DNA from: Rhodothermia bacterium
Lineage (GTDB): Bacteria; Bacteroidota; Rhodothermia; Rhodothermales; UBA2364
DNA: 33,298 nt
Reading direction: 5' to 3'
Assembly: GCA_017303715.1 (NCBI GenBank)
Contig: JAFLBZ010000044.1
Span: forward strand, 1 to 33,298
The notes under the pieces are model-generated. The model did not search any database. It saw nothing but the letters and a program-made list of their open reading frames with translations, and had not been told where the DNA came from. The position numbers were made by a program, and so were the translations under genes. Each line of letters begins with the position of its first letter. Position 1 is the stretch's first letter. Positions 1 to 33,298 of this stretch are shown piece after piece.

Positions 1-260
1 TTGAAGCCGCCGAAATTGCAAAGTTCACCTCCGAAGAAAAGGAACAATACGAACAAAGTTTAAAATCGTATCGAGACCTCAAAAATGTGATTGATACCGC
101 TTTTGTTGAGGGAGAAACAAAAGGGAAAATTGAAGGAAAAATTGAAGGGAAGATTGAAGGGAAGATCGAAATTGCCAAACGATTAAAATCAATGGGATTT
201 ACCATTGAGCAAATACAGGAAGCGACAGACCTGTCTAAAGAAGAAGTTGAACAACTTTAA
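1..260 (+). CDS. C-terminal part of an Rpn/PD-(D/E)XK family transposase-nuclease
   Basis: The reading frame is open from base 3 to the TAA at 258-260 and has no start in the window, so this is the 3' end (about 86 residues) of a longer gene. The tail is typical of the PD-(D/E)XK nuclease family transposases (Rpn, recombination-promoting nuclease). It has a charged helical stretch, then repeated G-K-I-E units, then a short helical end (KRLKSMGFTIEQIQEATDLS, followed by KEEVEQL). Family members are about 280-320 residues, with the catalytic domain at the N-terminus, so the catalytic part lies outside the window. The last 77 bases recur exactly, in inverted orientation, at the right end of the window, which points to a multicopy gene. 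The family call rests on this tail alone. Confidence 0.7.
   Translation, partial: EAAEIAKFTSEEKEQYEQSLKSYRDLKNVIDTAFVEGETKGKIEGKIEGKIEGKIEIAKRLKSMGFTIEQIQEATDLSKEEVEQL
123..170 (+). repeat. Four tandem 12-nt units coding for G-K-I-E
   Basis: Four consecutive in-frame 12-base units each encode Gly-Lys-Ile-Glu. They differ only at a few third-codon positions (gga/ggg, aaa/aag, att/atc). Such in-frame minisatellites in the linker of Rpn-type proteins can expand or contract without breaking the frame. Confidence 0.85.
184..260. repeat. Left copy of an exact 77-bp inverted repeat shared with 33222-33298
   Basis: Bases 184-260 are identical to the reverse complement of 33222-33298. Both copies end at the TAA stop of the Rpn-type gene, and the sequences diverge at the next base. 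This fits two genomic copies of one gene. Confidence 0.95.
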
Positions 261-11129: not shown

Positions 11130-11150
11130 TCTGTTGCTTCATTTAGAATG

Positions 11151-11265: not shown

Positions 11266-11267
11266 AA

Positions 11268-12931: not shown

Positions 12932-12942
12932 TTGATTTTCAA

Positions 12943-15982: not shown

Positions 15983-16375
15983 GACGAAATGGGCTAAGTT
16001 CAAAATACCTTTGTTTGTCAAATGATCCTCTTGGCTTTCCGCAAGTTCCTATTTCCACGCTTACACGGGCAATAATTTCCGGAGGAAGTTTGCATACAAA
16101 ATACATCATCTTATTGGACGACCAAAGTAAAACACCTTTTTTTAGGCTCTTTTCTCTGTATATCCTATTCTATGTACATGAGATAGCTTCATTGGGCTAC
16201 GGATGATCTGGTTTTTCATTGCAACCAAGAACGTTGTGTACCATATTCAAGTCCTTCTCCATTCTCCTTGAATAACAACCATTTAGCATACATACGCTAC
16301 TTGATTTTTAGGAGGATGCGAAACCACAAGCGGACTTGGTGGTAAGTAGGTTCAACCAAAACAACTTGTAAAACG
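15983..16375. other. Intergenic region at the right edge of the restriction island
   Basis: This lies between the divergent hsdR and DUF547 genes. No protein is recognisable; a 63-residue frame at 16015-16206 has no family features. On the minus strand there are TATTTTG sequences that resemble a shortened Bacteroidota -7 element, but without a well-spaced -33 element. No tRNA or att-like repeat was seen. Confidence 0.5.
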
Positions 16376-17257: not shown

Positions 17258-17340
17258 TTCACGTCTCCGCCCTAAAAGGGGCAGTGTAATCGAAACCAAC
17301 CACCAACCCCTAAAAACCAAATCACGTTGAAAAACAGAAA

Positions 17341-17380
17341 AAAGGCATCCCCTCTGAAGCGAAGAGATGCCCTTTTAAAA
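17341..17380. terminator. Bidirectional terminator between the DUF547 and M24 peptidase genes
   Basis: Bases 17344-17349 (ggcatc) pair with 17366-17371 (gatgcc), with extra pairing inside (tct/aga). A-rich and T-rich runs flank the stem on both sides (gaaaaaa before, cttttaaaa after), so it can act on either strand. Confidence 0.75.
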
Positions 17381-17403
17381 AAATAATGTCGTTATTAGGC
17401 TTT

Positions 17404-18849
17404 TTATTTTTCGGAGAGTTTGCCATTAGACAAGTTGCCAAGTCCTTTTTTGCGCATCGCTGCTTCGATGTCGGCCACGCTACGTGGTGCAATGCCGGAA
17501 AGCAATTTAAGACCATCTTTTGTAGCAAGGTAATCGTCTTCAATTCGGACGCCAATATTCCACCATTTGGGATCTACCTCATCGGACGGTTTGATATAAA
17601 TCCCCGGCTCGATGGTAAAGACCATTCCTTCTTCGATTTTGTTGCCACCCCAGTCATGCACATCTAAGCCAATGTGGTGTGCCACGCCGTGTAAAGTGAA
17701 ATTTCTGAACTTGCTACGTTCTTTAAGGAGTCCCAATTCCATTAGCCCATCAGCAATTACATTATGAGCAACAATGGACAATTGATTGAGTGGGGTTCCC
17801 AATTTTCCGGCATCCGCAGCGGCATTTTGGGCTTTTAGGCACAACTCATAAATGGCCTTTTGTTCAGGCGAAAACTTCCCATTTGCTGGAAAAGTTCTCG
17901 TGATATCGGCGGTATAGCCCATATACTCGGCAGCGGCATCAATGAGGATCATATCCCCATTCTTAATTTGCCGACGGTTTGTGTTGTAGTGTAAAATGGT
18001 CGTGTTTTCCCCACTCCCAACAATCGAAGGATAACCGGGGAAGGCGGCGCCGTTCATTTGATAAACATATTCCAAAATGGCCTCCAATTGGTATTCAAAC
18101 ATGCCCGGCTCTGCACTTTGCATGGCTTCGAGGTGTGCCGTTGCCGAGATGTCTATGGCTTTTTGGAGGACTTGCATTTCTTCTGGTTGCTTAATGCCCC
18201 GCAATTCCCTCATGATTTGCGGCAAAAGATCACGGTTTGGAGAAAGTTTACGCTCTGTAAACTGAGTTTTGAGGTAAGAAATGCTCTTCGTGATGATTGG
18301 CATCCAGCGGGGGTTGGGTGCTTCCACACCTGCTAACCCATCTTGAAAGGGCATGTGAAACACTTTGTATTTATTGGAATCCAAGAGTTTGCCTAAAACT
18401 TCCTCAAAGCGGGTATTGTCTAAGGCGAGGGCAACGCCCAATTCTTTCATTGCACGGTCTGCTCCGAACAGACGGCCATTCCATGTTTCCGTTTGTGGAT
18501 TTCTGGGGGGGACAAAGAGGATTTCTTTTACCGTCTTACCATCCACTTCGATGCCTGCTGGAGACAACAACAAAAAGGTTCCTTCTTCGTGCGAGCCTGT
18601 AAGGTAATAGGTATTGCGGTCGGGTTGGTACTCAAACTCGGTATCGTTAGAGCGGTTGCGCAAGGGGTTGTTTAGGAAAATGGCCAAGGCATCTGGTGGT
18701 AATTTGGCCAATACCGCTTCACGACGGTTTTTCGTAAAATTGGCGGATAGCCCAACGTCATAGCGCGCCGGATAATCCGGAAGTGGGGTTTGGGCGAAGG
18801 CAGGTAGGTAAACCGCTAAGGTTAGAACAACAACGAATAGGCGTTTCAT
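17404..18849 (-). CDS. Secreted Xaa-Pro aminopeptidase-like protein (M24B family)
   Basis: M24B enzymes remove the N-terminal residue of peptides whose second residue is proline, using two metal ions. The five metal ligands can be placed: Asp304 and Asp315 (LIDAAAEYMGYTADITRTFP), His391 (HGVAHHIGLDVHD), Glu414 (TIEPGIYI) and Glu437 (VRIEDDYL). An N-terminal creatinase/AMP_N domain covers about residues 25-190. I start at MKRLFVVVL (18849), which gives a clean signal peptide ending AFAQ and 481 residues. The upstream in-frame ATG at 18897 lies within a promoter -7 element and is unlikely to be used. The signal peptide means it acts in the periplasm, unlike the cytoplasmic E. coli PepP. A final segment of about 30 residues after the catalytic domain is Lys-rich. 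Confidence 0.93.
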   Translation of the reverse strand: MKRLFVVVLTLAVYLPAFAQTPLPDYPARYDVGLSANFTKNRREAVLAKLPPDALAIFLNNPLRNRSNDTEFEYQPDRNTYYLTGSHEEGTFLLLSPAGIEVDGKTVKEILFVPPRNPQTETWNGRLFGADRAMKELGVALALDNTRFEEVLGKLLDSNKYKVFHMPFQDGLAGVEAPNPRWMPIITKSISYLKTQFTERKLSPNRDLLPQIMRELRGIKQPEEMQVLQKAIDISATAHLEAMQSAEPGMFEYQLEAILEYVYQMNGAAFPGYPSIVGSGENTTILHYNTNRRQIKNGDMILIDAAAEYMGYTADITRTFPANGKFSPEQKAIYELCLKAQNAAADAGKLGTPLNQLSIVAHNVIADGLMELGLLKERSKFRNFTLHGVAHHIGLDVHDWGGNKIEEGMVFTIEPGIYIKPSDEVDPKWWNIGVRIEDDYLATKDGLKLLSGIAPRSVADIEAAMRKKGLGNLSNGKLSEK

Positions 18850-18886
18850 GTGTATTTGATTTAGGGATTGTGACAAAGGCATGACG

Positions 18887-18916
18887 CAAATATACATATA
18901 AGGTTACGGAAATAAA
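18887..18916 (-). promoter_or_regulatory. Bacteroidota-type promoter of the M24 peptidase gene
   Basis: Read on the minus strand, a TTT (18914-18916) is followed after 19 bases by TATATTTG (18887-18894). This fits the Bacteroidota consensus TTG-N19-TAnnTTTG with one mismatch. It lies about 38 bases upstream of the chosen start codon. Confidence 0.6.
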
Positions 18917-19097
18917 AAAACGGGAAAACAACGTGAGTAGTAGGCTAAGGTTGGGCTACAAATCTTGCACTGCTACTAAGAATATTTAGCCTACATTCTG
19001 GCGGCGGCATTATAGAAATCCGATTCCCAAGGATAAAAATGAAACCGATGCCGGAAGCATCAAACGTATATAGAAAATGGTTTGATGGGTTTTATTC

Positions 19098-19162
19098 GAC
19101 TCCAAAGGGGTCACATATGGTTTTGATTTTGTTTTTCTACAAACATGGTATCCCTTTGGGAT
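19098..19162. repeat. Paired REP-like palindromes
   Basis: Two short palindromes, gactccaaaggggtc (19098-19112, one mismatch) and atccctttgggat (19150-19162, perfect), flank a T-rich spacer containing gtttttctacaaacatgg. This arrangement resembles dispersed palindromic repeats of Bacteroidota. The rest of 18917-19097 shows no gene. Confidence 0.65.
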
Positions 19163-19297
19163 ATGAATAATATTATTGGAAGCTTGGACAAACAGACCGT
19201 GATCTGTATCGGGCTTTTTTTTGGGCCAGCAATTCTTTTTCTATGGGCCGCCCTGCCTTTTTATGATGGTGTTCGTGCTTTTATACCTCTCGATTAA
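19163..19297 (+). CDS. Possible small membrane protein (44 residues)
   Basis: An ATG at 19163, directly after the REP-like pair, opens a 44-codon frame ending at 19297. The peptide has a short polar start (MNNIIGSLDKQ), one strongly hydrophobic helix (TVICIGLFFGPAILFLWAAL) and the tail PFYDGVRAFIPLD. It overlaps the 3' end of the convergent mpl gene by 17 bases. No good ribosome binding site is visible and the frame may be a chance event, so this is a candidate only. Confidence 0.25.
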   Translation: MNNIIGSLDKQTVICIGLFFGPAILFLWAALPFYDGVRAFIPLD

Positions 19298-20765
19298 GCC
19301 GTATGGCGTCTAAAAGTTTATTGTGAATGCCGCCAAAACCACCATTGGACATGATAAGAACCACATCACCGGATTTTACCACACCAACCAAATTGGGGAG
19401 CAATTGATCTGCACTTGGGTAATGCTCGGCTGGAATGCCAGTACGAGAAATTTGTTGCGTAACGTAGTTCACATCCATAAAGTTATTCGGATCATCATTG
19501 TGGCGTAGCGGCGGGGCACTGATAAAAACGTGATGGGCGCGGTCAAAAGCCTTTGCATAGGCTTCCTCAAAGACCTTGCGACGACTGGAGTTGGAGCGGG
19601 GTTCAAAAACCGCAACAACCCTCCGGTTAGGCCAATGTTCACGAATGGCGGCAATGGTGGCCTCTACTGCGGTGGGGTGATGCGCAAAGTCATCCACCAC
19701 TACCACATTGCGTTCGATGCCACGAACTTCTTGCCTGCGTTTAAGCCCCCGAAAACTGGCAAAGGCGGCGGAAATTTCAGCGTGCGTTAGTCCTTCCGCA
19801 AGTGCAATTGTTAACACGCCTAAGGCATTGCTCAGGTTATGCTTGCCCGACATCGGAAAGAACATTTCTGGAAGCCGTTCACCCAAGACAATCGGGGTGA
19901 AAAATTGCCCACCTTCCACGGGGCGTATATCGGTAGCGGTGACGTGGTAACCTTCATCCTGCAAGCCATAAAATTGTACACGAGCCTTGCTAAATGAAGC
20001 GAGATCCCGAACAGCCGCGGCATCTCCACACAGTGCAAGCGTCCCGGTGGGATCTACAATACCTGCAAATTGTTGGAAGGCTTCCCGATACATGTCCCAA
20101 GAATCGTAGATGTCTGCATGGTCGTATTCCATAGATGTTACAATGGCGGACGTTGGACGATAGTGCAGGAATTTGGGGCGTTTATCGAAGTAGGCACTGT
20201 CGTATTCATCGCCCTCCACCACAAAATGTGCCCCTTTCCCCACACGGTAACTGGTTCCGGTATTGGTCATCACCCCACCGATCAGGTATCCGGGGTCTCT
20301 GCCCGCGTGTAGAAATGTGTGCGCAAGGATGCCTGTAGTCGTGGTTTTGCCATGCGTTCCGGCCACCACCAAAGAGCGTTTCTCGTTTAAGAAAAAATGT
20401 GCCAATGCTTCAGGAAATGACTGCTGAACAAGTCCATTTTCTCGGGCATAGGCTGCCTCTGGATGTGTAGGCGTACAAGCATTGCCCGTAATTACCAAGC
20501 TTGGCGGTGGTTGCAGGTGTGTGGTATCATATCCTTCGTGGAATAGAATGCCCATTTCCCGCAAACGGGTACTCATGGGCGGCCAAGCTGCTTCGTCTGC
20601 GCCTTTTACCTCATACCCTGCTTCTTTGAACAAACCAGCAAGCGAACCCATTCCGGTTCCGCAAATGCCGATCAGATATACGTCTTGGATTTGGGAGGCT
20701 GGAGGAACTTCAGGTCTTTGAAAAATGCGTAAATGGGCATCCGGAAAATCGGATAAGGATCTCAT
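19281..20765 (-). CDS. mpl: UDP-N-acetylmuramate:L-alanyl-gamma-D-glutamyl-meso-diaminopimelate ligase
   Basis: Mpl joins the recycled tripeptide L-Ala-D-Glu-mDAP to UDP-MurNAc and so returns cell-wall fragments to peptidoglycan synthesis in the cytoplasm. The protein shows the Mur-ligase three-domain order. The N-terminal Rossmann part has GICGTGMGSLAGL and the Mpl-typical PPMSTRLREMGI. The ATP-binding loop is GTHGKTTT (residues 136-143). The central segment EGDEYDSAYFDKRPKFLHY is typical of Mpl rather than MurC. The C-terminal domain has DDFAHHPTAV and FEPRSNSSRR. I start at 20765 (MRSLSDFPD, 494 residues). The longer frame to 20831 would run into the preceding gene. It lies 25 bases after the tlpA-like gene and is probably its operon partner. 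The presence of mpl implies a meso-DAP peptidoglycan. Confidence 0.96.
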   Translation of the reverse strand: MRSLSDFPDAHLRIFQRPEVPPASQIQDVYLIGICGTGMGSLAGLFKEAGYEVKGADEAAWPPMSTRLREMGILFHEGYDTTHLQPPPSLVITGNACTPTHPEAAYARENGLVQQSFPEALAHFFLNEKRSLVVAGTHGKTTTTGILAHTFLHAGRDPGYLIGGVMTNTGTSYRVGKGAHFVVEGDEYDSAYFDKRPKFLHYRPTSAIVTSMEYDHADIYDSWDMYREAFQQFAGIVDPTGTLALCGDAAAVRDLASFSKARVQFYGLQDEGYHVTATDIRPVEGGQFFTPIVLGERLPEMFFPMSGKHNLSNALGVLTIALAEGLTHAEISAAFASFRGLKRRQEVRGIERNVVVVDDFAHHPTAVEATIAAIREHWPNRRVVAVFEPRSNSSRRKVFEEAYAKAFDRAHHVFISAPPLRHNDDPNNFMDVNYVTQQISRTGIPAEHYPSADQLLPNLVGVVKSGDVVLIMSNGGFGGIHNKLLDAIRLNREV

Positions 20766-20790
20766 ATTCTTTGATAACTGCTGGTTTAGG

Positions 20791-21342
20791 TTAAGAGCCG
20801 GAGGCTTGTGCCAAAAGTGCCTGAAAAGCAAGCAGGCTTTGTCCGCCTTGTACGCCCACCATCACACTTCCATCTTTACGAATTACATAGGTGGTTGGGA
20901 GTACGTCCGATAGGGCAGGGTCTAAAAAAGCCAAATCTTGATCGGGTGCATCACTGTCCAATTGGCGAAAGGTTAGATTCAATTTATTTTTCTGGAGAAA
21001 CGCTTGAACTTCGGCCCCTTTGTCGGCGGGATCATCCATTGAAAGGGCAAGAACCGCAACATTTGGGTTTTTTTCTGCAAATGTTGCCAGATCCGGAAGT
21101 TCTCGAATACAAGGTGGGCACCATGTGGCCCAAAGGTTTAGAAAAACAATCTTTCCTTTTTGGGCTTCGAGCCATTGCTTTAGGTCTTTACTGGTCATCA
21201 GCAACTTAGAAGCATCACCAGTGCTTTTTTTGGTTTCTTGTGGAACGGAGGGGTCGGTGCATCCCATGAATCCATAGGAGGAAATTACGGTGACCAAAGT
21301 AAAAGCAACAAAGCGAATCTTGGTGTGCATTATCGGGATCAT
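20791..21342 (-). CDS. TlpA-like thioredoxin lipoprotein
   Basis: The 183-residue protein has a lipoprotein signal with the lipobox FMGC and Cys28 as the likely acylated residue. The second Met at 21330 (MHTKIRFVAF) is another possible start. A thioredoxin-fold domain follows at about residues 50-180. Its active site W-C-P-P-C has Cys75 and Cys78 (LNLWATWCPPC), and the cis-proline region is LPTTYVI. TlpA/ResA proteins act outside the cytoplasm as thiol-disulfide reductants, for example in cytochrome c maturation. The WCPPC centre fits this group, but no cytochrome maturation genes are near, so the client is unknown. It is transcribed divergently from the LolA-like gene at 21416 and is followed closely by mpl. 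Confidence 0.9.
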   Translation of the reverse strand: MIPIMHTKIRFVAFTLVTVISSYGFMGCTDPSVPQETKKSTGDASKLLMTSKDLKQWLEAQKGKIVFLNLWATWCPPCIRELPDLATFAEKNPNVAVLALSMDDPADKGAEVQAFLQKNKLNLTFRQLDSDAPDQDLAFLDPALSDVLPTTYVIRKDGSVMVGVQGGQSLLAFQALLAQASGS

Positions 21343-21375
21343 TAAGTCTTAAAAGCTTGATGGTAAAGATTAAAT

Positions 21376-21389
21376 AAATTACGTAATTT
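21376..21389. promoter_or_regulatory. 14-bp palindrome between divergent genes, possible operator
   Basis: AAATTACGTAATTT is a perfect palindrome centred in the 73-base gap between the tlpA-like gene (minus) and the LolA-like gene (plus). Its place fits a binding site acting on both promoters, but AT-rich palindromes also arise by chance. Confidence 0.35.
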
Positions 21390-21415
21390 TAAGGCCATTC
21401 AAACCATCCTATTTT

Positions 21416-22183
21416 ATGATCTATATGAACCTATTACGGAAAACGCTCATCTTGGGCTTGTTAACGTTGTCCATTACAGTGTCTCATGCACAAACTGGCT
21501 CTAACACCTCCGAGACTGGTCGGAATTTACTTTTACAAGCTGTCCAATATTGTGGGAGTGCCGAGGCGTTCAAATCGCTTAAAGCCCTGCAAGTACAAGC
21601 CACGTCTAAGCTACACCAAGCCGCAACCCCCATAGAAGTAAAAACGGATCGGATATATGTGTTCCCCACCAAAGTGATAACCAAAATTTTCGTGACGGGT
21701 CAACAAGCTGCCGAAATTATCAATGGCGACAAGGCTTTTCATGTCTTGAATGGGGTTCGACTTGAGTTGTCTAAGGCGGAAACACGACGAATGCGTATGT
21801 TGCAATGGGCCGAATTGCCTTTTTTGCTATCTCAGGCGAACGATCCAACCCTGAAGGTGGACTTTGCGGGCACAAGTACCGTTGAAGATCGTGCCGTAAA
21901 TGTGGTTTTGATTTTGCCTCCGGGAGAAAAAGAGGTGGTTCAACTCTACTTGGATGCCGAGTCTGGGAAACCCATTACCCTTATTTTTGTGGATCAGGGC
22001 AATCCGCAGAACCCCGTTGGATATTGGACTTATCGGGATTGGAAAAAAGTCGGCAACTTCCAATTCCCACATAAAATGACCTTGTATGCGAATGATAAAA
22101 CCGTACAAGAAACACAATGGGATGCGGTAAGCATCAATCCCGATGTGGACGAAAACATTTTTTTAGGGCAATTGGATGAATAG
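21416..22183 (+). CDS. Periplasmic LolA/LolB-like protein
   Basis: The 255-residue protein has a signal peptide (start MIYMNLLRK; MNLLRK at 21425 is equally possible; cleavage likely after SHAQ). The remainder reads as the open beta-barrel type of LolA-like outer membrane lipoprotein-sorting proteins in Bacteroidota. Successive strands include IEVKTDRIYVFPTKVITKIF, AAEIINGDKAFHV, then LYLDAESGKPITLIFV and YWTYRDWKKVGNFQFPHKMT. The final segment (SINPDVDENIF) is typical of this family. True LolA carries lipoproteins between membranes, but many such Bacteroidota proteins have no tested role. Its last 8 bases overlap the next gene, which encodes a lipoprotein, so the two are translationally coupled and may work together. 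Confidence 0.65.
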   Translation: MIYMNLLRKTLILGLLTLSITVSHAQTGSNTSETGRNLLLQAVQYCGSAEAFKSLKALQVQATSKLHQAATPIEVKTDRIYVFPTKVITKIFVTGQQAAEIINGDKAFHVLNGVRLELSKAETRRMRMLQWAELPFLLSQANDPTLKVDFAGTSTVEDRAVNVVLILPPGEKEVVQLYLDAESGKPITLIFVDQGNPQNPVGYWTYRDWKKVGNFQFPHKMTLYANDKTVQETQWDAVSINPDVDENIFLGQLDE

Positions 22184-23003
22184 CTTATACCATTTTGTGC
22201 GAAAAGATAGCCTGAAAATGCTGCCCATATTGGCTTTCTGTTGGGGGTTCATGTTTACGAGCTGCCAGCGAGAAAAGCCTGTACAAGCCAAAGACGTCAT
22301 AATACGGGCGCAGAAGATACATGGATCTCACCTTTTGGATCGTGCAAAGGTCGAGTTTGTTTTTAGGGGTAAAAAATTTGAGGTACTCCGTTTTAACGGC
22401 CAATATCAGTACAAACGCCAATATCAGGATTCTACGGGTATTTTTGAGGAATATTTGACCAATGAGGGTGTTTCACGTATCCGTAATGGTAAACCGCAAA
22501 CGTTATCCGATGACGAAAAAGCCCAAATAGAGACTGCCCTAAACTCTGTTGTATATTTCGCCCTTTTGCCTTATAACCTGAAAGATAAAGCCGTTCAAGC
22601 AAAATATTTAGGAACGGTTCAGGTGGAAGGACAGCCTTACCACCAAATAGAAGTGCACTTTGCTGAACAGGCCGGCGGAAAAGATTGGCAGGATCGCTAT
22701 ATCTACTGGTTCCACCAAAAAATGGGAACCATGGATTATTTGGCCTATTTTTATCACACTAACGAATCAGGTGCTCGTTTTAGGAAAGCCGCCAATCCAC
22801 GAATAATTTCAGGTGTACGGATCGCAGACTATTTGAACTACCGTGCCCCAGAAGGGGTGACCTCGGTGGTGCATGAAAATTTGTTATCCTTCCCACAGCG
22901 ATTTGAAAACGGCGAATTGGCCTTGCTGTCTGAAGTAAACTTGGAGCAAGTCACGATTACGCCATTAGCAGGTTCTTGGCGGGCTACACAGACAAAGCAT
23001 TGA
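22176..23003 (+). CDS. DUF6503-like lipoprotein
   Basis: The protein has 275 residues. The N-terminus is hydrophobic and ends in FTSC with Cys30, an acceptable lipobox. The Met at residue 15 could be the true start and would give a shorter signal. The rest is beta-rich and unbroken: AQKIHGSHLLDRAKVEFVFR, YEYKRQ-like strands (here QYQYKRQYQDSTG), then DRYIYWFHQKMGTMDYLAYF and GVRIADYLNYRAPEG. The KIHG...DRAKVEFVFRGK start and the tyrosine-rich second half resemble the Bacteroidota DUF6503 family; I rate the family name as likely but not certain. It overlaps the LolA-like gene by 8 bases (start codon inside the preceding frame). No enzymatic motif is visible. Confidence 0.65.
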   Translation: MNSLYHFVRKDSLKMLPILAFCWGFMFTSCQREKPVQAKDVIIRAQKIHGSHLLDRAKVEFVFRGKKFEVLRFNGQYQYKRQYQDSTGIFEEYLTNEGVSRIRNGKPQTLSDDEKAQIETALNSVVYFALLPYNLKDKAVQAKYLGTVQVEGQPYHQIEVHFAEQAGGKDWQDRYIYWFHQKMGTMDYLAYFYHTNESGARFRKAANPRIISGVRIADYLNYRAPEGVTSVVHENLLSFPQRFENGELALLSEVNLEQVTITPLAGSWRATQTKH

Positions 23004-23129
23004 GTTTAGGAAGAACAAACTGTATATTTCCAGATTGTAGATAGCGTTTGGGACTGAAGTTAGCTTCTTTTCCTGCGTGCTTTGGGGAATATCCACCCCG
23101 ACTCTATCCACCAAAAACAGAAATATATT

Positions 23130-23963
23130 ATGAGACCTTCTCACTTTTTTATGGTATTTGGCTTGTTTGGTTTACTGATGGGGACAACCGGCTGTAATCT
23201 GTTCAAAAAGCCGACCAGTACCAATCCCAATGGTGGCGGAACGGTTGTTGTGAATCCACCGCCAACCACAATTAATCCTCCTGCATTACAAACCGTTTTG
23301 GTCGGGACTTTCGACGATATTCGCACGGGCGGAATGTCTTTTGCCACCAGCCCTTCCTTTAGTCAGGCGCGTTCCGCGCTCCTCGCTCGTTTTCCCAGAA
23401 CGCGAATCGTGACCTTTTCAGCACTTACGACTGAAAATTTGGACAATGTTAAGGTGCTGATTTTACATGTTTTACGGGGGCAGAAACAGCAAATGACGCC
23501 GCTTACGCCCGCCGAACGCCAAAATCTGATTAACTTTGTAGCCAATGGCGGATCTGTATTCATCATGACGGATCATATTGATTTTAATGAGGCCAATCAA
23601 AGCCTCTTAGCGCCATTTAACATGAGCAGCCGAGGCGTTGTACGGGATATGAGTGTGGTCAATGTGTCCTCGCCAAGGAACAATTCCATCACAAATGGCC
23701 GATTTGGTGTTGTGAATAGCTTTTCTCAAAATTGGTCGGGTGGATTTTCCCGCGTGCCTTCTAATGCGCTACGGATTGCGGGCAATCAGCAAGGAGATGC
23801 TTTAGTGGTTTTTGAACCGCGCGTTATTTCCAATATTGCGGGAGCGGTAGTGCTTTTTTCGGATGTAAGTACTTTTATTGATGACAAGGCAACGGGCATG
23901 TACAGCACAAATGAGATTTTGTACCTCAATACCTTGGATTATTTGTTGGGAACTGCCCGCTAA
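23130..23963 (+). CDS. Lipoprotein with a DUF4350/GATase1-like domain
   Basis: I start at MRPSHFFMVFGLFG (23130), giving 277 residues with a clear lipobox (GTTGC, Cys22). An upstream frame to 23082 adds residues unlike a signal. After the Cys comes a Pro/Thr/Asn-rich linker (about 28-50). Residues about 55-275 look like a Rossmann-type fold of the GldG/DUF4350 kind: LVGTFDDIRTGGMSF, then VKVLILHVLRG, then LTPAERQNLINFVANGGSVF and IMTDHID, and later AGAVVLFSDVSTFIDD and the end NTLDYLLG. These domains bind something but lack a catalytic triad, and none is visible here. The function is unknown. A hairpin terminator follows. Confidence 0.6.
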   Translation: MRPSHFFMVFGLFGLLMGTTGCNLFKKPTSTNPNGGGTVVVNPPPTTINPPALQTVLVGTFDDIRTGGMSFATSPSFSQARSALLARFPRTRIVTFSALTTENLDNVKVLILHVLRGQKQQMTPLTPAERQNLINFVANGGSVFIMTDHIDFNEANQSLLAPFNMSSRGVVRDMSVVNVSSPRNNSITNGRFGVVNSFSQNWSGGFSRVPSNALRIAGNQQGDALVVFEPRVISNIAGAVVLFSDVSTFIDDKATGMYSTNEILYLNTLDYLLGTAR

Positions 23964-23976
23964 GAATACATTAAAG

Positions 23977-24008
23977 AAGGCGGTTCGGTATGGATCGCCT
24001 TTTTGTTT
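23977..24008 (+). terminator. Terminator after the lipoprotein gene
   Basis: Bases 23977-23982 (aaggcg) pair with 23996-24001 (cgcctt) across a 13-base loop. TTTTGTTT follows, running directly into the next start codon at 24009. Some read-through may feed the next gene. Confidence 0.65.
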
Positions 24009-24584
24009 ATGGAAAAAAATGCTTATCCGCCCTTCGTCCAAAAAACGCTTGATCGGTTTTTAGAACCGCAAGAAAAGGTTCGGTTTTCAGATACCAGCCA
24101 ACGCGATGCCATGCTCTTAGACCTCAGACGGCCACTTTTGATGGCCCTGCTATGGTTGATGCTGGTTTGGATTTTGTTGCTATGGCTTAATCCAAATTGG
24201 CCGCCAAAGTGGCAATGGTCACAAACGTTCCAGAATTGGGTCGGGATCGGTTTGGTGCTGTGGTCTCTTGGGCGCATCCTCTGGATGTTCGAAATAGCCT
24301 ACGAAGAGGTTTGGTATTTTGTAACCGACCGCCGATGTATTGTGGTGGCCAAAGGGCATTTTATCACCCATACCGATGATATGTACCCCGATCCTCAGGC
24401 CGAAATCCGTGTTGAGATACACCAAAACGGATGGGGAGATGTGTATTTTGAACGATTGCCCGAAGAAGATGATCATAGAAAAGCGGATTTGGAAATGTGC
24501 TTCTTCGGCATTCGAGACCACGAAGGTGCAAAGATCGCATTAGAGCAATTTACTAAAGAGCATCAACAAAAAAACGTAGATTAA
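24009..24584 (+). CDS. PH-domain membrane protein
   Basis: I start at the ATG at 24009 (MEKNAYPPF), 191 residues; a TTG six bases upstream is in frame but less likely. After a charged N-terminal part of about 45 residues come two membrane helices (PLLMALLWLMLVWILLLWL and WVGIGLVLWSLGRILWM). A bacterial PH-like domain follows, starting EEVWYFVTDRRCIVVAKG, the usual Y-x-(I/V)-T-(D/N)-x-R pattern of YdbT-type proteins. The role of such proteins is not known in general. The gene lies directly after a terminator hairpin and 9 bases before tsaC, so it may head the tsaC transcript. Confidence 0.65.
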   Translation: MEKNAYPPFVQKTLDRFLEPQEKVRFSDTSQRDAMLLDLRRPLLMALLWLMLVWILLLWLNPNWPPKWQWSQTFQNWVGIGLVLWSLGRILWMFEIAYEEVWYFVTDRRCIVVAKGHFITHTDDMYPDPQAEIRVEIHQNGWGDVYFERLPEEDDHRKADLEMCFFGIRDHEGAKIALEQFTKEHQQKNVD

Positions 24585-24593
24585 ACCTTCAAT

Positions 24594-25187
24594 ATGCAAT
24601 TTCTGAAGGAAGCTGTAATAACTGTGTGTAATGGTGGTGTGCTCATTTACCCCACCGAAACTGTTTATGGCATAGGCGGGGATGCACATCGGGAAGAGGT
24701 GATTGCACGTGTGCAAAAAATAAAAGGAAGGGATGCCCAAAAACCCATGTTGGTTCTTACAGATGTGTGGGAACGAGCATTGCCTTGGATCGCAGAGCAG
24801 ACGCCTATTCATCAAGCCCTGATGGATACAGACCTCCCCCTAACCATTTTGTTTAAACCTACAAACCGAGTTCCCGATCGTCTGCGTGCGTTATCTGCTT
24901 TAATTGGTATTCGTAAAACAACGCATCCGTTTTGTCAAAAACTAATCAGGAATACAGATTCCTTATTGCTTTCAACGTCCGCAAACCCATCTGGAAGCCC
25001 AGCAACACACAACCTGAGTCAATTAGCAAGTGATTTCTTGGCGCAGGTTGACCTAACGGTGGATTTCGGGATATTACCCGCACAATTGCCTTCCTCGGTG
25101 GTGATGGTGGAAGGGGGTAAGATACGGTTGATACGAGAAGGTGCTATTGGCATAGCAATATTACACCGCCTTTTAGGTGTAGAATAA
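24594..25187 (+). CDS. tsaC: L-threonylcarbamoyladenylate synthase (YrdC/Sua5 domain)
   Basis: This enzyme makes threonylcarbamoyl-AMP from threonine, bicarbonate and ATP, the first step of t6A formation at position 37 of ANN-reading tRNAs, in the cytoplasm. The 197-residue protein is a single YrdC domain (short TsaC form, no Sua5 C-terminal domain). It has the diagnostic segments YPTETVYGIGGDA (residues about 19-31), then KIKGRDAQKPM and LLSTSANPSGSPA, and the late SSVVMVEGGKIRLIREGA. The gene lies 9 bases after the PH-domain gene. The asnS gene follows 80 bases later on the same strand, a translation-related neighbour. Confidence 0.95.
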   Translation: MQFLKEAVITVCNGGVLIYPTETVYGIGGDAHREEVIARVQKIKGRDAQKPMLVLTDVWERALPWIAEQTPIHQALMDTDLPLTILFKPTNRVPDRLRALSALIGIRKTTHPFCQKLIRNTDSLLLSTSANPSGSPATHNLSQLASDFLAQVDLTVDFGILPAQLPSSVVMVEGGKIRLIREGAIGIAILHRLLGVE

Positions 25188-25267
25188 GGAAAACCATCTG
25201 GATTCTATAAGGGAAATAGCGTATCTTATGCAACTGATTTAGCAAATATTGATCAAACAAAAGGTTC

Positions 25268-26773
25268 ATGCAACAAGATTTTGTGTACATCCGAAATTTG
25301 GCCCAGCACGTTGGAAATGTCGTAACGCTAAAAGGGTGGCTCTATAACAAACGATCCTCTAAAGGCTTGCATTTTCTAATTTTACGAGACGGAACTGGAT
25401 TGGCGCAGTGTGTGGTAGCGGAGCAAGAAGTGAGTGAGGAGGCGTGGTTGGCGGCTGAAAATGCAACCCAAGAAAGTTCTTTATCACTCACGGGGCTTGT
25501 TCGCAAGGACGAAAGACAAATTGGGGGCTACGAATTGGTAGTCCAAAATGCAACATTGATCCAACAATCCGAAGGCTATCCTATTACCCCAAAGGAACAT
25601 GGTATTGAGTTCTTGATGGATCAACGCCACCTTTGGCTTAGAAGCCAACGCCCTTGGGCTACGATGCGCCTCCGGAACAATATTATCATGTCCATCCATC
25701 ACTTTTTCCAAGAACAAGGGTTTGTGCAGATGGATGCACCTATTTTCACCGGAAATGCAGTCGAAGGAACATCAACCCTCTTTGAAGTGGATTATTTTGA
25801 GGATAAAGCCTACCTCACACAGTCTGGACAGTTGTATGGCGAGGCAATGGCGATGGCCTTGGGCAAGATTTACACCTTTGGCCCCACCTTCCGTGCCGAA
25901 AAATCCAAAACCCGACGACACCTCACCGAATTTTGGATGATTGAGCCGGAAATGGCATTCTACGACTTGGCAATGGATATGGATTTGGCCGAGGGTCTGT
26001 TACGCCGAATTTTGCGGGATGCAATGACCAATTGCAAGTCCGAGTTGGAAATCCTTGGGCGTGATCTCTCTCTCCTGGAAAAAGCAGATGCCAACTTCCC
26101 GCGCATCCATTATTCCGATGCCGTGGAATTGCTTAAAAGCAATAAGAGCATGGAAATGTTAGACCGAGAATTGGAAGAAGCCTTCAATCAGGAAAAAGTA
26201 CTCCGTGCAGAACTCGCGGAGATAAAGAAAAATTATGGCTCGGCAAAAAAGTGGGAGAAAAAGAAGTTCGATGCCCGCGAAATCGAAATCAACCAATTGC
26301 TTGAAGACTGCGCAGAGCGCCAACGGAACTTGCCCAAGTGGAAAGCCTCGGCGTTAGCGTTTGAGTGGGGAAACGATTTGGGCGGAAGTGACGAAACCGT
26401 CCTTACCAAACACTTCGATACACCGATTATGGTTCACCGCTATCCCGCTGCGGTCAAGGCATTTTATATGAAGCGCGATCCAGAAGACGACCGCTTGGCG
26501 CTTGGCGTAGATGTGCTTGCACCAGAGGGATATGGCGAAATTATCGGCGGCGGTGAACGTGCTACTGATTTACAATTCCTCTTAGATCAAATTCGGGCAC
26601 ATGGCTTACCGGAGTCCGCCTTTACGTGGTATTTAGACCTACGGCGTTTTGGCTCCGTGCCACATAGCGGATTTGGCCTTGGTTTAGAGAGAACCGTTTG
26701 TTGGGTAGGTGGTCTGAAACACGTCCGTGAGGCAATCCCATTCCCACGCCTGATGAGCCGTCTAAGCCCTTGA
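25268..26773 (+). CDS. asnS: Asparaginyl-tRNA synthetase
   Basis: AsnRS attaches asparagine to tRNA-Asn in the cytoplasm. The 501-residue protein has the class IIb order. An N-terminal OB-fold anticodon-binding domain covers about residues 1-105 (GNVVTLKGWLYNKRSSKG, LRDGTGLAQCVV). The class II catalytic core has motif 2 (TFGPTFRAEKSKTRRHLTEF, then WMIEPEMAF) and motif 3 (GFGLGLERTVCWVGGL). The FTGNAVEGTSTLFEV segment fits AsnRS rather than AspRS. At about residues 280-365 a charged, coiled-coil-like insertion (LDRELEEAFNQEKVLRAELA and onward) makes it longer than the E. coli enzyme (466). The start has no strong ribosome binding site, as is usual in Bacteroidota. No terminator is evident after it. 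Confidence 0.96.
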   Translation: MQQDFVYIRNLAQHVGNVVTLKGWLYNKRSSKGLHFLILRDGTGLAQCVVAEQEVSEEAWLAAENATQESSLSLTGLVRKDERQIGGYELVVQNATLIQQSEGYPITPKEHGIEFLMDQRHLWLRSQRPWATMRLRNNIIMSIHHFFQEQGFVQMDAPIFTGNAVEGTSTLFEVDYFEDKAYLTQSGQLYGEAMAMALGKIYTFGPTFRAEKSKTRRHLTEFWMIEPEMAFYDLAMDMDLAEGLLRRILRDAMTNCKSELEILGRDLSLLEKADANFPRIHYSDAVELLKSNKSMEMLDRELEEAFNQEKVLRAELAEIKKNYGSAKKWEKKKFDAREIEINQLLEDCAERQRNLPKWKASALAFEWGNDLGGSDETVLTKHFDTPIMVHRYPAAVKAFYMKRDPEDDRLALGVDVLAPEGYGEIIGGGERATDLQFLLDQIRAHGLPESAFTWYLDLRRFGSVPHSGFGLGLERTVCWVGGLKHVREAIPFPRLMSRLSP

Positions 26774-27250
26774 GCGCAAAAACCGAGCTTTATTATATTT
26801 GGCTAGATCACCGTTTAACACGCTAAAACGCTTTTTTGACGTTAAGACAATCGTGCTTCTTCTGTACACTACAGATAGAATATCCCACCCGATGGGGCTA
26901 TAAGTGTTTAGTGTTTTTCTATGCGATTATTATAGCTTATTGTCTCGTTGTTTCGACTCACTCAGCCAACATGGATGGCTATATTCAGCCAACATGGATG
27001 GAGCATTGGCTACATTAACCAGTTTTTCCTCGTCATGTAAAGATGCCACCCCTACGGCGTTTTGCCATTCATTAATAAAGTAGAACAAACCCTTGTAAAA
27101 CCAGAATTTATGCAATCCCGCAAGCTCTTACATGACGCTCATGAGGCCGGAACTGGCTTTTGCGGGCTTCCACTTGATTACATAATGCACGTTTAAGCAT
27201 TAAAATCCTTTTAAGTAAAAACTGGCTCAATAAAGCTTTTATGATATTAG
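26774..27250. other. Intergenic stretch without a gene, with one short direct repeat
   Basis: No protein is recognisable. Bases 26962-26978 and 26985-27001 are identical 17-base direct repeats (tcagccaacatggatgg) with a 23-base period. Near 26884 there is a degenerate REP-like palindrome (cccacccgatgggg). Confidence 0.5.
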
Positions 27251-27496
27251 ATCTTTTTTGAAAAAACATTTGGTGAGATTGGAAAGGGCTTTATTCATGT
27301 ACACCACCTTAACGCAATCGTGGAAATTGGAAAAGAATATAAAATTTATCCCAAAAACGATTTGATTCCTGTTTGCCCGAATTGCCATGCAATGATTCAT
27401 TCAGAAAGAACTGCTTTTACAGTGAACGAAATAAAAGAAATAATAAAAACTACTGCTAACACAGGTTTGTCGTTAGTGGGCGGACAGTGCGGATAG
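27251..27496 (+). pseudogene. C-terminal remnant of an HNH endonuclease
   Basis: The frame runs for 81 codons from just after a TAG (27248-27250) to a TAG at 27494-27496 and has no good start. It reads FFEKTFGEIGKGFIHVHHLN, later YPKNDLIPVCPNCHAMIH. This is the core of McrA-like HNH endonucleases, with HVHH, the Asn/Asp position, C-P-N-C and the final H. The upstream part with the first CxxC pair is missing, so the gene is truncated. The copy kept all visible active-site residues, which suggests recent decay. Confidence 0.75.
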
Positions 27497-27679
27497 AAAC
27501 ATTTGAGCAATTAATAAACGTCGGTGTTGGCAAACTTTACGATTTTAAAAGCGCACCAATGCAAAGCCCAGAACCATTTATCGCAATAACATCAGTACGA
27601 TATTTTAATTTAAAAATCTAACAAACGAAGATATTTTTTATCTATCAGTCGTGTTAAAAAAGACTTTATTACGAAATTA
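27497..27679. other. Short decayed coding remnant downstream of the HNH fragment
   Basis: In another frame (27487 to the TAA at about 27621) a run of about 45 codons reads ETFEQLINVGVGKLYDFKSA and ends RYFNLKI. It has no start and I do not recognise it. A small hairpin, CTAAC...GTTAG, lies just upstream near 27455-27477. No gene is called. Confidence 0.35.
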
Positions 27680-27713
27680 AAAAAGGCCACTCCATTTAAG
27701 GAAGCGGCCTTTG
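27680..27713 (-). terminator. Rho-independent terminator of the HtrA-type protease gene
   Basis: On the minus strand AAAGGCCGCT (27703-27712) pairs with AGTGGCCTTT (27682-27691), with one mismatch. A run TTTTTAATT follows. It lies just downstream of the gene ending at 27730. Confidence 0.85.
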
Positions 27714-27729
27714 AAAATTGCAACCACAT

Positions 27730-29253
<1,524 letters not shown>

Positions 29254-29332
29254 AGCTTATGGGTTAAGGTTTTGAAGGTTATATAGATGGAAATTATTGG
29301 CTTGTTTCACGCAAAAAAGAGGGTTGGGTTTC

Positions 29333-29388
29333 ATGAACAAAAAACAAGACATGCGCCAGAACGGATCTATACGCATGTCTTTTGTTCC
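29333..29388 (-). terminator. Second hairpin between fumC and the protease gene
   Basis: Bases 29346-29355 (aagacatgcg) pair perfectly with 29372-29381 (cgcatgtctt) around a 16-base loop. Read on the minus strand it is followed by GTTTTTTGTT. It looks like a terminator, but no gene is known in the roughly 70 bases between it and the fumC terminator. Confidence 0.65.
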
Positions 29389-29456
29389 AAACCACAGAAC
29401 ATGAATCGTAGCGTAAGAGGAACGGATCTTTGGGCTTTAATATTGTTAGACGGCAT

Positions 29457-29490
29457 AAAAAAAGCGCATCGGAGTCGAGGCGCTTTTTTC
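29457..29490 (-). terminator. Rho-independent terminator of fumC
   Basis: Bases 29458-29467 (aaaaaagcgc) pair exactly with 29480-29489 (gcgctttttt). This gives a GCGC-stemmed hairpin with A and T runs on both sides, just downstream of the fumC stop at 29513. Confidence 0.85.
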
Positions 29491-29512
29491 AAATTTTATC
29501 TAAAAGATTTTG

Positions 29513-30916
29513 TTAGCTGCCGGGGATTCCCGCTTCCGTCATGCTGCGCACATCCAAGACGGCATCCAATTCCTCCTCCGTTAGCAAGCCCAATTCCTTC
29601 ACCACGACACGGACGGATTTGCGTTCTTTTGCGGATTGCTTGGCTACTTTTGCCGCCATGTCGTACCCTATCGTCCGGTTAAGGGCGGTTGCAATGGAGG
29701 GATTTAGCTCCAAAAGTTCCTTACAGCGGGCTTCGTTTGCCACTATACCATCGAGGCATTTGGTGCGGAAGGCATCGAGGCCATTAGACAAGATGGCAAC
29801 GCTTTCTAACATTGCATGAGCCATGACGGGCATCATGACATTCAGTTCAAAATTACCCATTTGCCCACCGACGGTAATGGTGGTCAGGTTGCCTTGCACC
29901 CGTGCAGAGACCATCATCATGGCCTCGCTCATGACGGGATTCACCTTTCCGGGCATGATGGAAGAGCCGGGTTGAAGGTCGGGGAGGAGGATTTCGCTGA
30001 GACCGCTGGTCGGGCCGGAACCAAGCCAACGAATATCGTTTACGATTTTCATCACTGTGACCGCCAACGTATTGAGTGCGCCAGCAACCGAGACATAGGC
30101 ATCTTTTGAGGCTTGCGCTTCCATATGGTTTTCGGCTTCGTGGAAGGCCATTCCCGTTTGTTCGGAGATGGCCGCAATCGCATTTACAGGAAAAGCCGGT
30201 GGGCAGTTAATCCCTGTTCCGGTGGCAGTTCCGCCCAAAGCCAGTTCAGAAAGTTCTTCAGAAGCGCGTTCGATTCGGGTGCGTGCTTTGGCCATTTGTG
30301 CGGCATATCCGCCAAATTCTTGGCCTAAGCGAACCGGCGTGGCATCCATTAAGTGGGTACGTCCACTTTTGACCACATGATCAAAAGCCGCTGCTTTGGC
30401 GTTTAGAGACGCCTCAAATGCCGCGAGGGCCGGAAGTAATTCCCGTTCGATGGCCACACGAGCCGCAACATGCATAGCCGTTGGGATCACATCGTTGGAA
30501 GATTGTGACATGTTAACGTGGTCGTTGGGATGGATCTTTTTCCCCCCACGTTCGCCACCCATCGCCACAGTACCGAGATTCGAGATCACCTCATTTGCAT
30601 TCATGTTGGTGGAGGTTCCGGAACCCGTTTGGAAAATGTCTAAGACAAATTCGGCGTCCATTTCCCCAGCAATCACTTTATCACAAGCAGCTTGAATAAT
30701 GACGGATTTTTCTGCCTCTAAAAGTCCTATTTTTTCGTTCGCAATCGCACACGATTTCTTGACGATGCCCAAGGCTTCGATGAAGCGACGTGGGAAGCGA
30801 AGCGAGCTAATCGGGAAGTTATTCTTGGCACGTTCGGTTTGTGAACCATACCAAGCAGTAGCCGGAACTTGGACATCGCCCATAGAGTCCCGTTCAATAC
30901 GAAATTCACTCATCAT
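29513..30916 (-). CDS. fumC: Class II fumarate hydratase
   Basis: FumC interconverts fumarate and L-malate in the TCA cycle, without an iron-sulfur cluster. The 467-residue length is standard. Visible signatures are the N-terminal ERDSMGDVQVPATAWYGSQT, the substrate-binding segments TGSGTSTNMNANEVISN and HPNDHVNMSQSSNDVIPTAM, the active-site GRTHLMDATPVRLGQEF, and the lyase-family loop GSSIMPGKVNPVMSEA. The second Met (30913) is the more usual start, one codon into the frame. The TGTGIN segment and the KVN loop are those of fumarase rather than aspartase. It is transcribed divergently from panC, with a small palindrome in between, and ends at a strong terminator. Confidence 0.97.
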   Translation of the reverse strand: MMSEFRIERDSMGDVQVPATAWYGSQTERAKNNFPISSLRFPRRFIEALGIVKKSCAIANEKIGLLEAEKSVIIQAACDKVIAGEMDAEFVLDIFQTGSGTSTNMNANEVISNLGTVAMGGERGGKKIHPNDHVNMSQSSNDVIPTAMHVAARVAIERELLPALAAFEASLNAKAAAFDHVVKSGRTHLMDATPVRLGQEFGGYAAQMAKARTRIERASEELSELALGGTATGTGINCPPAFPVNAIAAISEQTGMAFHEAENHMEAQASKDAYVSVAGALNTLAVTVMKIVNDIRWLGSGPTSGLSEILLPDLQPGSSIMPGKVNPVMSEAMMMVSARVQGNLTTITVGGQMGNFELNVMMPVMAHAMLESVAILSNGLDAFRTKCLDGIVANEARCKELLELNPSIATALNRTIGYDMAAKVAKQSAKERKSVRVVVKELGLLTEEELDAVLDVRSMTEAGIPGS

Positions 30917-30945
30917 AGTCTGGATTATTGGGTCTGAATATCATT

Positions 30946-30958
30946 ATTGTTGAACAAT
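30946..30958. promoter_or_regulatory. 13-bp palindrome between fumC and panC
   Basis: ATTGTTGAACAAT is a perfect inverted repeat with a one-base centre, 30 bases upstream of fumC and 75 bases upstream of panC. It could be an operator in the divergent promoter region. No promoter elements could be placed around it. Confidence 0.35.
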
Positions 30959-31032
30959 CAATAGCGCATTGGGCGCAACTCAAAAAGGTACGTATGCCTG
31001 CTTGAATTCACCGTCAAAACGTTCGTTCCTTC

Positions 31033-31914
31033 ATGAAAATCTTTCAAACCATCGCCGAAGCACAGGCTTTTTCTAATGCACAACTTCGTGCTGGCCGCCG
31101 ATTGGCCCTCGTCCCCACAATGGGCGCGCTCCACGAAGGCCACTTGCGCTTGGTGGATGAGGCATTCCGACATGCAGACGCGGTGGTGGTTTCTATATTT
31201 GTCAATCCAACACAGTTTGGGCCAAATGAGGACTTTTCCCGTTATCCGCGCACGCTGGAGGCCGATCTCGCAGCCCTTCAAGCACGAGGTGTCTCTGGCG
31301 TTTTTACCCCGACGGTTGCCGAGATGTATCCGCTCAATGACCAGACGTGGGTGGAGGTTCATGGGTTAGATGCACATCTTTGCGGCCCTTTTCGTCCGGG
31401 ACATTTCCGAGGAGTTACGACGGTGGTTGCACGTCTTTTTTTGGCCTGCCGTCCGCAGGTAGCGGTTTTTGGTCTGAAAGACGCCCAACAATTCCTGATC
31501 CTTCGTCGGATGGTGCGCGATCTACACTTTGGGATCGAAATGGTGGGGATGGAGACGGTGCGGGAGTCGGATGGTCTTGCGATGTCTTCTCGGAACCGTT
31601 ACTTAGGTGAAGCGGAACGGGAAAAAGCGGGTATTATCTCTAAAGCGGTTTTATTGGGGCGAGATTTGGTGACTGCTGGCGAACGTCGTCCTGATGTGGT
31701 GGAAAAAGCCATGCGGGATGCAATGGCATCGGTGGAGGGCGTTTCCGTCCAATATGCCGAAATTGTGGACGCCGAGCAATTACAACGCCCTAACTTGATT
31801 TTACCCGAAACCGAGTATTTGGTGGCTGTTGCTGGCTTTCTTGGGCAAACGCGGCTGATAGACAATCAATTTGTTTCTACTCGTGGATCGTTATCTGCCC
31901 CATCTTCTTTGTAA
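31033..31914 (+). CDS. panC: Pantothenate synthetase (pantoate-beta-alanine ligase)
   Basis: PanC joins pantoate and beta-alanine using ATP to make pantothenate, the precursor of coenzyme A, in the cytoplasm. The 293-residue protein has the family signatures. These are the adenylate-forming HIGH-like motif PTMGALHEGHLRLV (residues about 28-41), SIFVNPTQFGPNEDFSRYPR, the pantoate-site region GPFRPGHFRGVTTVV, the later VFGLKDAQQF (most family members have GEKDYQQ, so this is a local variant), and the KMSKS-like MSSRNRYL. The C-terminal dimer-side domain (about 185-280) is complete. No panB or panD is adjacent. The start at 31033 matches the family start (MKIFQTI). Confidence 0.96.
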   Translation: MKIFQTIAEAQAFSNAQLRAGRRLALVPTMGALHEGHLRLVDEAFRHADAVVVSIFVNPTQFGPNEDFSRYPRTLEADLAALQARGVSGVFTPTVAEMYPLNDQTWVEVHGLDAHLCGPFRPGHFRGVTTVVARLFLACRPQVAVFGLKDAQQFLILRRMVRDLHFGIEMVGMETVRESDGLAMSSRNRYLGEAEREKAGIISKAVLLGRDLVTAGERRPDVVEKAMRDAMASVEGVSVQYAEIVDAEQLQRPNLILPETEYLVAVAGFLGQTRLIDNQFVSTRGSLSAPSSL

Positions 31915-32334
31915 CGAGCATTATTGGATTCGCTATAATGGATGGCTGTGTCATGCATGGGTAGCTTTCTGATGTACTTCACCGAGGAAGTGCAAAGTTA
32001 GCCCCATCGGGGTCGTATCTTCTCCTCTTAAATCCGATCTTCTGCCTGTCGAGTCCGATTCTTGAGCTTGTCGAAAGCCCGTTTCTTACTCACGTTGTGT
32101 TTTCTCTTAAGGCTAAATCTGTTTTTTGTGCGCCTACATTTCCTCCCTAAAGGACTGCGTTAAAGCATTGCTTTTGCTTGATGTTACCGACCTGATGGGT
32201 GGTGTTGCTTTATGCTCTCCGGTTTGAAAATAACCCCGTATTTCAGCTTGGGGTTTCGTGCAAATACCTCAGCCATCGGCTTCTGTTTTCGTGAAATGAG
32301 GCATTTCCAAGTAAATAAAGGTTAATTTATCACA
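31915..32334. other. Repeat-rich intergenic region
   Basis: No gene was found. The stretch holds a REP-like palindrome (ccccatcgggg, 32002-32012) and a TTGAGCTTGTCGAAAG-type sequence (about 32061-32077) that resembles widely dispersed bacterial repeats. It also holds the second copy of the roughly 50-base repeat (32231-32282, partner 6686-6735). Confidence 0.55.
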
Positions 32335-33125
32335 AGACTTGTTGCATTGGGATAAGTAAAATGTTTACGCTTAGTTTAAGCGTGTATTCCCCCTTAATAT
32401 TAATCCATATAAAACGATGAAGGATTTTTCGATATATTCAAATGTCAAAACAGATCGTGACTTCTTAGCGTCAACAGGTGTAAATAAGACAGATTTTCTA
32501 ATGCTTCTTTGTGAATTTGAGCAAATAGAATTTCAAATCAGGACTTCATTTCCGTCTTGAACGAAGACTCAATATGACAAAAATTTATCTACTTTTTAGG
32601 TTTTAGATAGCCCTGAAATACGTTTTTTTTGTTTTATTTTACCTCAAAAACGATCCAACATCAGATTTAATGGGCTTAATTTTTTTGATTACTAAGGCAA
32701 GTATTAGCACTTGAAGGGGTGCTTCCGGCACGAGATGCAGAAGGACTAGCCTTAAAGATGGAAGAAGTTCTTCTAATTGATGTCACAGAGCTTCCTATAG
32801 AACGACCTAAAGTATTGGAAAAACAGAAAATACATTATTATAGTAAAAAAAACACACACCATAAAGACCTTGATGATTAAAAACGTCCATAAATAGAAAA
32901 TCGGAAGAAGAGTTCTGTAAGAATCACAGTCGAGCATGTAATGGGCTTTTTAAAACGATTCCGAGTATTGTCTGAAAAACTTAGACGTATGAAAAGAGAG
33001 ACTGCTGAAATGATACTGGAAATTTGTGCAGGATTATGCAATTTAAAACTCAAAAATTCAAAACATGAATTTTGCACCCAAACTTAATTCCTTCTAAACC
33101 CAATAAAAACAAGCGCAAAAAGTCT
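32335..33125 (+). mobile_element. Remnant of an IS5-type insertion sequence
   Basis: Imperfect terminal inverted repeats are visible: agacttgttgca at 32335-32346 and, reversed, agactttttgcg at 33114-33125 (10 of 12 match). They bracket the broken transposase frame, 70 bases before its first ATG and 38 bases after its last stop. At about 790 bases the element is short for the family because the middle of the transposase is gone. No convincing target-site duplication was found. Confidence 0.6.
32417..33087 (+). pseudogene. Broken IS5-family transposase
   Basis: Four pieces of one transposase can be read in order. 32417-32560 has the N-terminal part (MKDFSIYSNVKTDRDFLAST, stop TGA). 32601-32690 gives RFFCFIYLKNDPTSDLMGLI in another frame. 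32698-32880 gives VLALEGVLPARDAEGLALKM, then LLIDVTELPIERPKVLEKQK and KIHYYSKKNTHHKDL, then a stop. 32893-33087 gives ENRKKSSVRITVEHVMGFLK, then RFRVLSEKLRRMK and a final stop. The segment LIDVTELPIERPK...YYSKKNTHH carries the first DDE Asp. The block between KKNTHHKDL and ENRKKSS, which should hold the second catalytic Asp, is deleted. With frameshifts, several stops and this deletion the enzyme cannot work. Confidence 0.8.
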
Positions 33126-33221
33126 AGTTTTTTGAATCCAAAATCCGTAAAGGGATTAATATATCTTTCTGTGACTGCCATTTCTTTACTTTTTTAGGCA
33201 TTGATGCCGTGTTGGTGACGG

Positions 33222-33298
33222 TTAAAGTTGTTCAACTTCTTCTTTAGACAGGTCTGTCGCTTCCTGTATTTGCTCAATGGTAAATCCCATTGATTTTA
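33222..33298 (-). CDS. C-terminal end of a second Rpn-type gene copy (truncated by the window end)
   Basis: The last 77 bases, read on the minus strand, encode the same final 24 residues as the gene at the left end (KSMGFTIEQIQEATDLSKEE, then VEQL and TAA). The rest of this copy lies beyond the window. The sequence after its stop (toward 33221) differs from that after the left copy, so it is a separate genomic copy or an assembly-graph overlap. Confidence 0.8.
   Translation of the reverse strand, partial: KSMGFTIEQIQEATDLSKEEVEQL

Follow-up and report, generated by a model that had tools for sequence, protein, structure and literature searches.

The exact 77-bp inverted match that closes the stretch of DNA analysed here (the window, 33,298 bases) is, with high confidence, the trace of an assembly break at three near-identical copies of an rpn gene, left by an assembly whose final k was 127. 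This explanation builds on direct observations, namely the overlaps between contig ends, their common length of 127 bases, the balance of three N-terminal against three C-terminal ends, and the orientation in which the gene meets them. In the proposed course of events, the genome would carry three near-identical copies of rpn, encoding an Rpn/PD-(D/E)XK nuclease, and a program that we take to have been a short-read assembler of the de Bruijn type (final k, 127) would have been unable to pass through them. Breaks on the N-terminal side of the gene would have given the right end of contig C33 and the left ends of C40 and C58, and breaks on the C-terminal side the left end of C4 and both ends of C44. 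The last of these contigs, which is the window, would then be what lies between two rpn copies, the 3' ends of which both point inward.

Overlap lengths at the contig ends

The inverted match itself was confirmed: the reverse complement of the first arm and the second arm agree in 77 of 77 bases (Table 1). This is far beyond chance: by our own estimate, which assumes equal base frequencies, an exact match of 77 bases has an expectation below 1e-37 in 33 kb. No other repeat of 30 nt or longer in the window is exact, and the other inverted pair covers 46 nt at 83% identity. On the inner side of the contig the match stops at a differing base just past the rpn stop codon, and on the outer side it is bounded solely by the contig end. 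One additional occurrence of these 77 bases was detected in the genome, at C4:172-248. The original prediction had also taken the window for a complete contig, and rightly so, since it equals G000:C44:1-33298, the entire contig C44 in an assembly of 62 contigs and 4,353,183 bases (genome G000).

Overlap lengths were scored throughout the assembly, using the terminal 3 kb on each side of 60 contigs together with C44 and C62 (4,766 bases) as wholes; for each of the 124 termini, the length of the exact match of its outermost bases elsewhere in this set was recorded. Exact matches of at least 31 bases were present at 100 termini and absent within this set at the other 24. The best match reached at least 127 bases at 95 termini and fell below 127 at five (39, 76, 100, 102 and 125 bases). 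A match of exactly 127 bases was recorded at 89 of the 124 termini, and the overlap length of the assembly is therefore 127. Exact overlaps of one length, located at repeats, are what contig ends from de Bruijn assemblers of the SPAdes type look like; no difference from such ends was found, and the length of 127 suggests that SPAdes was the program used.

The original prediction had instead read the 77 bases as the k of the assembler, with the two ends of the window meeting at a 77-base node. The self-match does have exactly this length and does touch the contig end, but a match of exactly 77 occurs at 1/124 termini, against 89/124 for 127, and that single case is the right end of the window, where it comes second after a match of 127. 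Moreover, the arm at 184-260 is internal and does not lie at the left end, and the end overlap consists of 127 bases shared with C4. An assembler with k=77 is thus barely credible, and is refuted by the distribution of end overlaps. The partner of the contig-ending overlap is likewise not 184-260, as had been supposed, but C4:172-298, and this right-end overlap ends at a single-base difference (C4:299) located 50 bp past the rpn stop codon.

The three C-terminal ends account for the length of 77. Immediately beyond the rpn stop codon (window 260, C4:248), the copy at the left end of the window (copy A) no longer resembles those on C4 (copy B) and at the right end of the window (copy C), but copies B and C remain identical for 50 further bases. 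Because copies B and C share these 50 bases and copy A lacks them, the match between the two ends of the window has 127 minus 50, or 77, bases, and its length is an accident of where a single-base difference sits.

A 33-kb contig with inverted copies close to its two ends could also be read as a linear replicon, phage or transposable segment that spans the window and is bounded by a terminal inverted repeat. We give this reading next to no weight, as the left arm begins at 184 and not at 1, the repeated sequence is a gene's 3' end that C4 carries too, and the window holds chromosomal-type genes (among them, to judge from the translations, what we take to be panC, fumarase and asparagine-tRNA ligase genes) and is partly collinear with congeners. 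The internal position of the left arm and the gene end shared with C4 rule out a terminal repeat of a linear element.

Table 1 Features of the window (33,298 bases, entire contig C44).
Feature	Position	Strand	Remarks
Assembly overlap with C4:1-127	1..127	+	exactly 127 bases, divergence at base 128
rpn copy A, 3' part	1..260	+	C-terminal 85 residues from base 3; stop codon 258-260
Candidate internal reading frame	87..260	+	GTG start, 57 residues; position expected for RpnS antitoxin
Four GKIE tetrapeptide repeats	123..170	+	12-bp units; C4 copy has three
Arm 1, 77-bp exact inverted repeat	184..260	+	3' end of rpn copy A including stop codon
Internal rpn piece beyond insertion sequence	32275..32334 (about)	-	same strand as 5' piece
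Decayed insertion sequence	32335..33125	+	DDE_Tnp_4 remnants; ends AGACTT.../...AAGTCT; edges uncertain by at least 1 base
5' piece of second, tandem rpn gene, 56 bp	33126..33181	-	ATG at 33181-33179; ends at insertion sequence
Assembly overlap with C4:172-298	33172..33298	-	exactly 127 bases, reverse complement, then difference at next base
Arm 2, 77-bp exact inverted repeat	33222..33298	-	3' end of rpn copy C, reading inward from right end

Three probable rpn copies and a tandem relic

A search of the genome with the PF12784 profile gave matches at nine places. Three are N-terminal halves (profile positions 1-76, 96.7 bits each against a cut-off of 27.4), which run off the right end of C33 and the left ends of C40 and C58. 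The left ends of C4 and C44 cut through C-terminal pieces, and a further C-terminal piece, of 24 residues, lies at the right end of C44. When the rpn pieces were compared with the outermost 127 bases at each of the 124 termini, the same six ends were recovered and no others. Three N-side and three C-side contig ends imply that three near-identical rpn copies would be present in the genome. The original prediction of several Rpn copies, and of a contig broken at a branch inside this multicopy gene, is borne out by these ends. The remaining PF12784 places are further or broken relatives on C19, C1 and C18 and a truncated second copy on C4; the broken relative on C18 (16979-17277) is 81% identical to the window C-terminus over 48 residues.

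Over 259 bases, pairwise comparison of the N-side copies shows 1, 3 and 4 differences, each at a third codon position; the encoded protein is identical, and the last 127 bases are free of differences. For the C side, 245 of 248 aligned bases are identical between C4:1-248 and the left copy of the window, in addition to a 12-base gap, and wherever two copies are both visible they are at least 98% identical with this repeat gap left out. No copy is whole, and the PF12784 search of the genome did not find the gene middle (profile positions ~77-196) for these copies. A complete homologue on contig C56 of congener G001 has 293 residues from its ATG (TIGR01784, 109.8 bits on a 297-residue stretch that includes four residues upstream of the ATG), and comparison with it suggests that ~120 residues (~360 bases) are missing between the N and C sides. 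The missing middle is probably one collapsed piece of ~0.6 kb, made up of the ~360 bases and a 127-base overlap on each side; the shortest of the 62 contigs has 4,766 bases, so a piece of this size would probably have been lost to a length filter.

Beyond the stop codon of both the C4 copy and the right-end copy, a 40-base spacer is followed by the start of a second rpn gene, which on C4 runs into a stop codon after 42 residues. Window 33126-33298 is 98.8% identical to C4:344-172, and the 5' piece of the second gene in the window corresponds to residues 3-16 of the G001 homologue. The internal piece on the far side of the insertion sequence is 54% identical to residues 144-167 of that homologue (E=2.7e-4, the first few residues running into the insertion sequence) and gives a 92% DNA match over 60 bases to the rpn relic on C18. 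Similarity to rpn ends at ~32275, and ~130 residues are missing between the two pieces. Since rpn pieces lie on both sides of it and on the same strand, the insertion sequence lies within this second gene, the greater part of which has been lost; by eye, no target duplication was visible beside it. One of the two remnants of the insertion sequence that were tested against DDE_Tnp_4 gave a match. With window 32000-33125 as the query, at least 42 matches were obtained in the genome among the 40 of 113 candidates that were scored. Relatives of this insertion sequence end 28 of the 124 contig termini, and rpn ends six.

Orientation and gene order in the congeners

The gene reads into C44 from the left end on the plus strand and from the right end on the minus strand. 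An assembly break and true inverted flanking copies had originally been set against each other as alternatives. The break stands, and because rpn reads inward from both ends, inverted rpn copies also appear to flank the window; it is the opposition between the two that falls away. Near-identical copies in this arrangement might allow the 33-kb segment to flip by homologous recombination between them, so that both orientations would occur in the population, and both the inward reading of rpn and the high identity of the copies would suit such a flip. However, the break is fully explained without flipping, and both congeners place the matched blocks of the window in two separate neighbourhoods, which puts a breakpoint inside the window at 17.2-27.7 kb. 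We therefore regard flipping as very unlikely and retain the assembly break at three rpn copies as the explanation.

By panC, the nearest named genome is Bacteroidetes bacterium UBA2364 (79% identity, among the best 80 loci). PF12784 matches were present in 3 of the 40 genomes searched, the genome under study included, all belonging to this genus. In congener G002, two contigs stop inside rpn, within roughly its first 35 codons, and one C-terminal piece lies at a contig end; the ends of its contigs C2, C3 and C41 are assembly breaks inside rpn, and C2 and C3 begin with the same 141 bases.

Alignments with congeners G001 and G002 (longer than 250 bases, E of at most 1e-15) covered the first 20 kb of C4 and the whole of C44, and gave no pairing of N-side with C-side contigs. 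In both congeners the flank of the right end of C33, with a gene that we assume to be nlpC-like, and the left flank of C44, with a Usp-family gene, are 8.9 kb apart, but the sequence facing the nlpC-like gene corresponds to window ~17.2 kb and not to the rpn end. The flanks of the left ends of C40 and C58 did not adjoin C4 or C44 sequence in the congener stretches, which extended ~10 kb beyond each. The first gene in the left flank of C4 had no match in either congener, and its next conserved gene, presumably aroB-like, took its place in the comparison. Synteny in the genus is often broken, and no evidence was therefore taken from these comparisons that rpn causes rearrangement.

The window brings together neighbourhoods that lie apart from each other in both congeners, one matching 658-17249 (G002:C29, G001:C109) and the other 27719-31877 (G002:C59, G001:C39); the sequence between them, 17249-27719, had no match in the congener stretches compared. 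A Type I restriction-modification cluster occupies 8474-16021 and comprises HsdM, a DUF1016/YhcG nuclease, HsdS, a PDDEXK_3 protein and HsdR. It is absent in both congeners, where the sequences flanking it in the window, at 8.36-8.39 kb and 16.52 kb, are ~0.7 kb apart. Imperfect AGGATT-rich repeats (11149-11247, 12442-12540 and 12958-13003) lie between its hsdS, PDDEXK_3 and hsdR genes; two are direct (79%) and one is inverted (83%).

The rpn gene family and its repeats

The gene found here is another member of the known Rpn family (Rpn/RpnS; COG5464, TIGR01784, PF12784), sharing with the systems described in the available part of PMC10327210 its profile matches, its several copies, a tandem duplicate and a variable four-residue repeat in the C-terminal region. 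The N-terminal PD-(D/E)XK nuclease domain is recognized by profile. The C-terminus encoded in the window, from copy A, whose 5' part lies beyond the contig end, matches TIGR01784 at positions 190-273 (E=1.1e-13; 51.7 bits against a whole-protein cut-off of 52.1) and PF12784 with E=2e-4 (21.6 bits, under the cut-off of 27.4); the 86-residue piece at the right end of C33 scores 35.7 bits against TIGR01784, also below the whole-protein cut-off.

In the part of PMC10327210 available to us, Rpn proteins are described as toxin-antitoxin and anti-phage proteins, in which RpnS, a small C-terminal product translated within the gene, blocks the full-length nuclease. Between strains, the first helix of RpnS varies in its four-residue repeats; repeats of this kind are reported to set antitoxin specificity, and neutralization was lost when one partner was given one extra repeat (same part of PMC10327210). 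There, too, rpn copies are said to have neither fixed ends nor target-site duplications, and arrays to arise via tandem duplication.

The sequences at the left ends of C44 and C4 part inside the first GKIE unit (base 128), and the C-terminal region carries this repeat four times in the former against three in the latter. Variation between strains of a species is what the available part of PMC10327210 describes, whereas here paralogs within a single genome differ in repeat number. A KGIE-type repeat was found in congener G002. An in-frame GTG at 87 precedes the repeats by 12 residues, inside the range of 8-20 given in that part of the published account. Judged from sequence, the frame opened by this codon is a candidate RpnS antitoxin, and the copies may encode an Rpn toxin with an internal antitoxin. 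The Rpn C-terminal domain is expected to have a long first helix that bears the repeats, followed by two more helices. For the 85 residues, an AlphaFold2 model of modest confidence (mean pLDDT 72.5, pTM 0.40, from a four-sequence alignment) has helices at 10-63 (long), 68-75 and 79-84, with the repeats at 41-56. Searched against PDB sequences, this C-terminus returned nothing better than E=0.56.

A broader reading would make the three rpn copies toxin-antitoxin paralogs whose nuclease part is kept near-identical, in which the number of GKIE repeats confines each internal antitoxin to its own toxin, and in which the copies serve as recombination points, the 33-kb flip included; taken as a whole, this is unlikely. 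The assembly simply breaks at a gene present in three copies, and the terminal match marks a limit of the assembly and not a biological terminal repeat. The self-overlap of one contig can mislead on k, and it is the distribution of overlaps over all contigs that decides. The biological point that is left is modest: a few recent rpn paralogs with differing repeat numbers in one genome would offer a natural test of the published idea that Rpn antitoxins are insulated from one another by repeat number.
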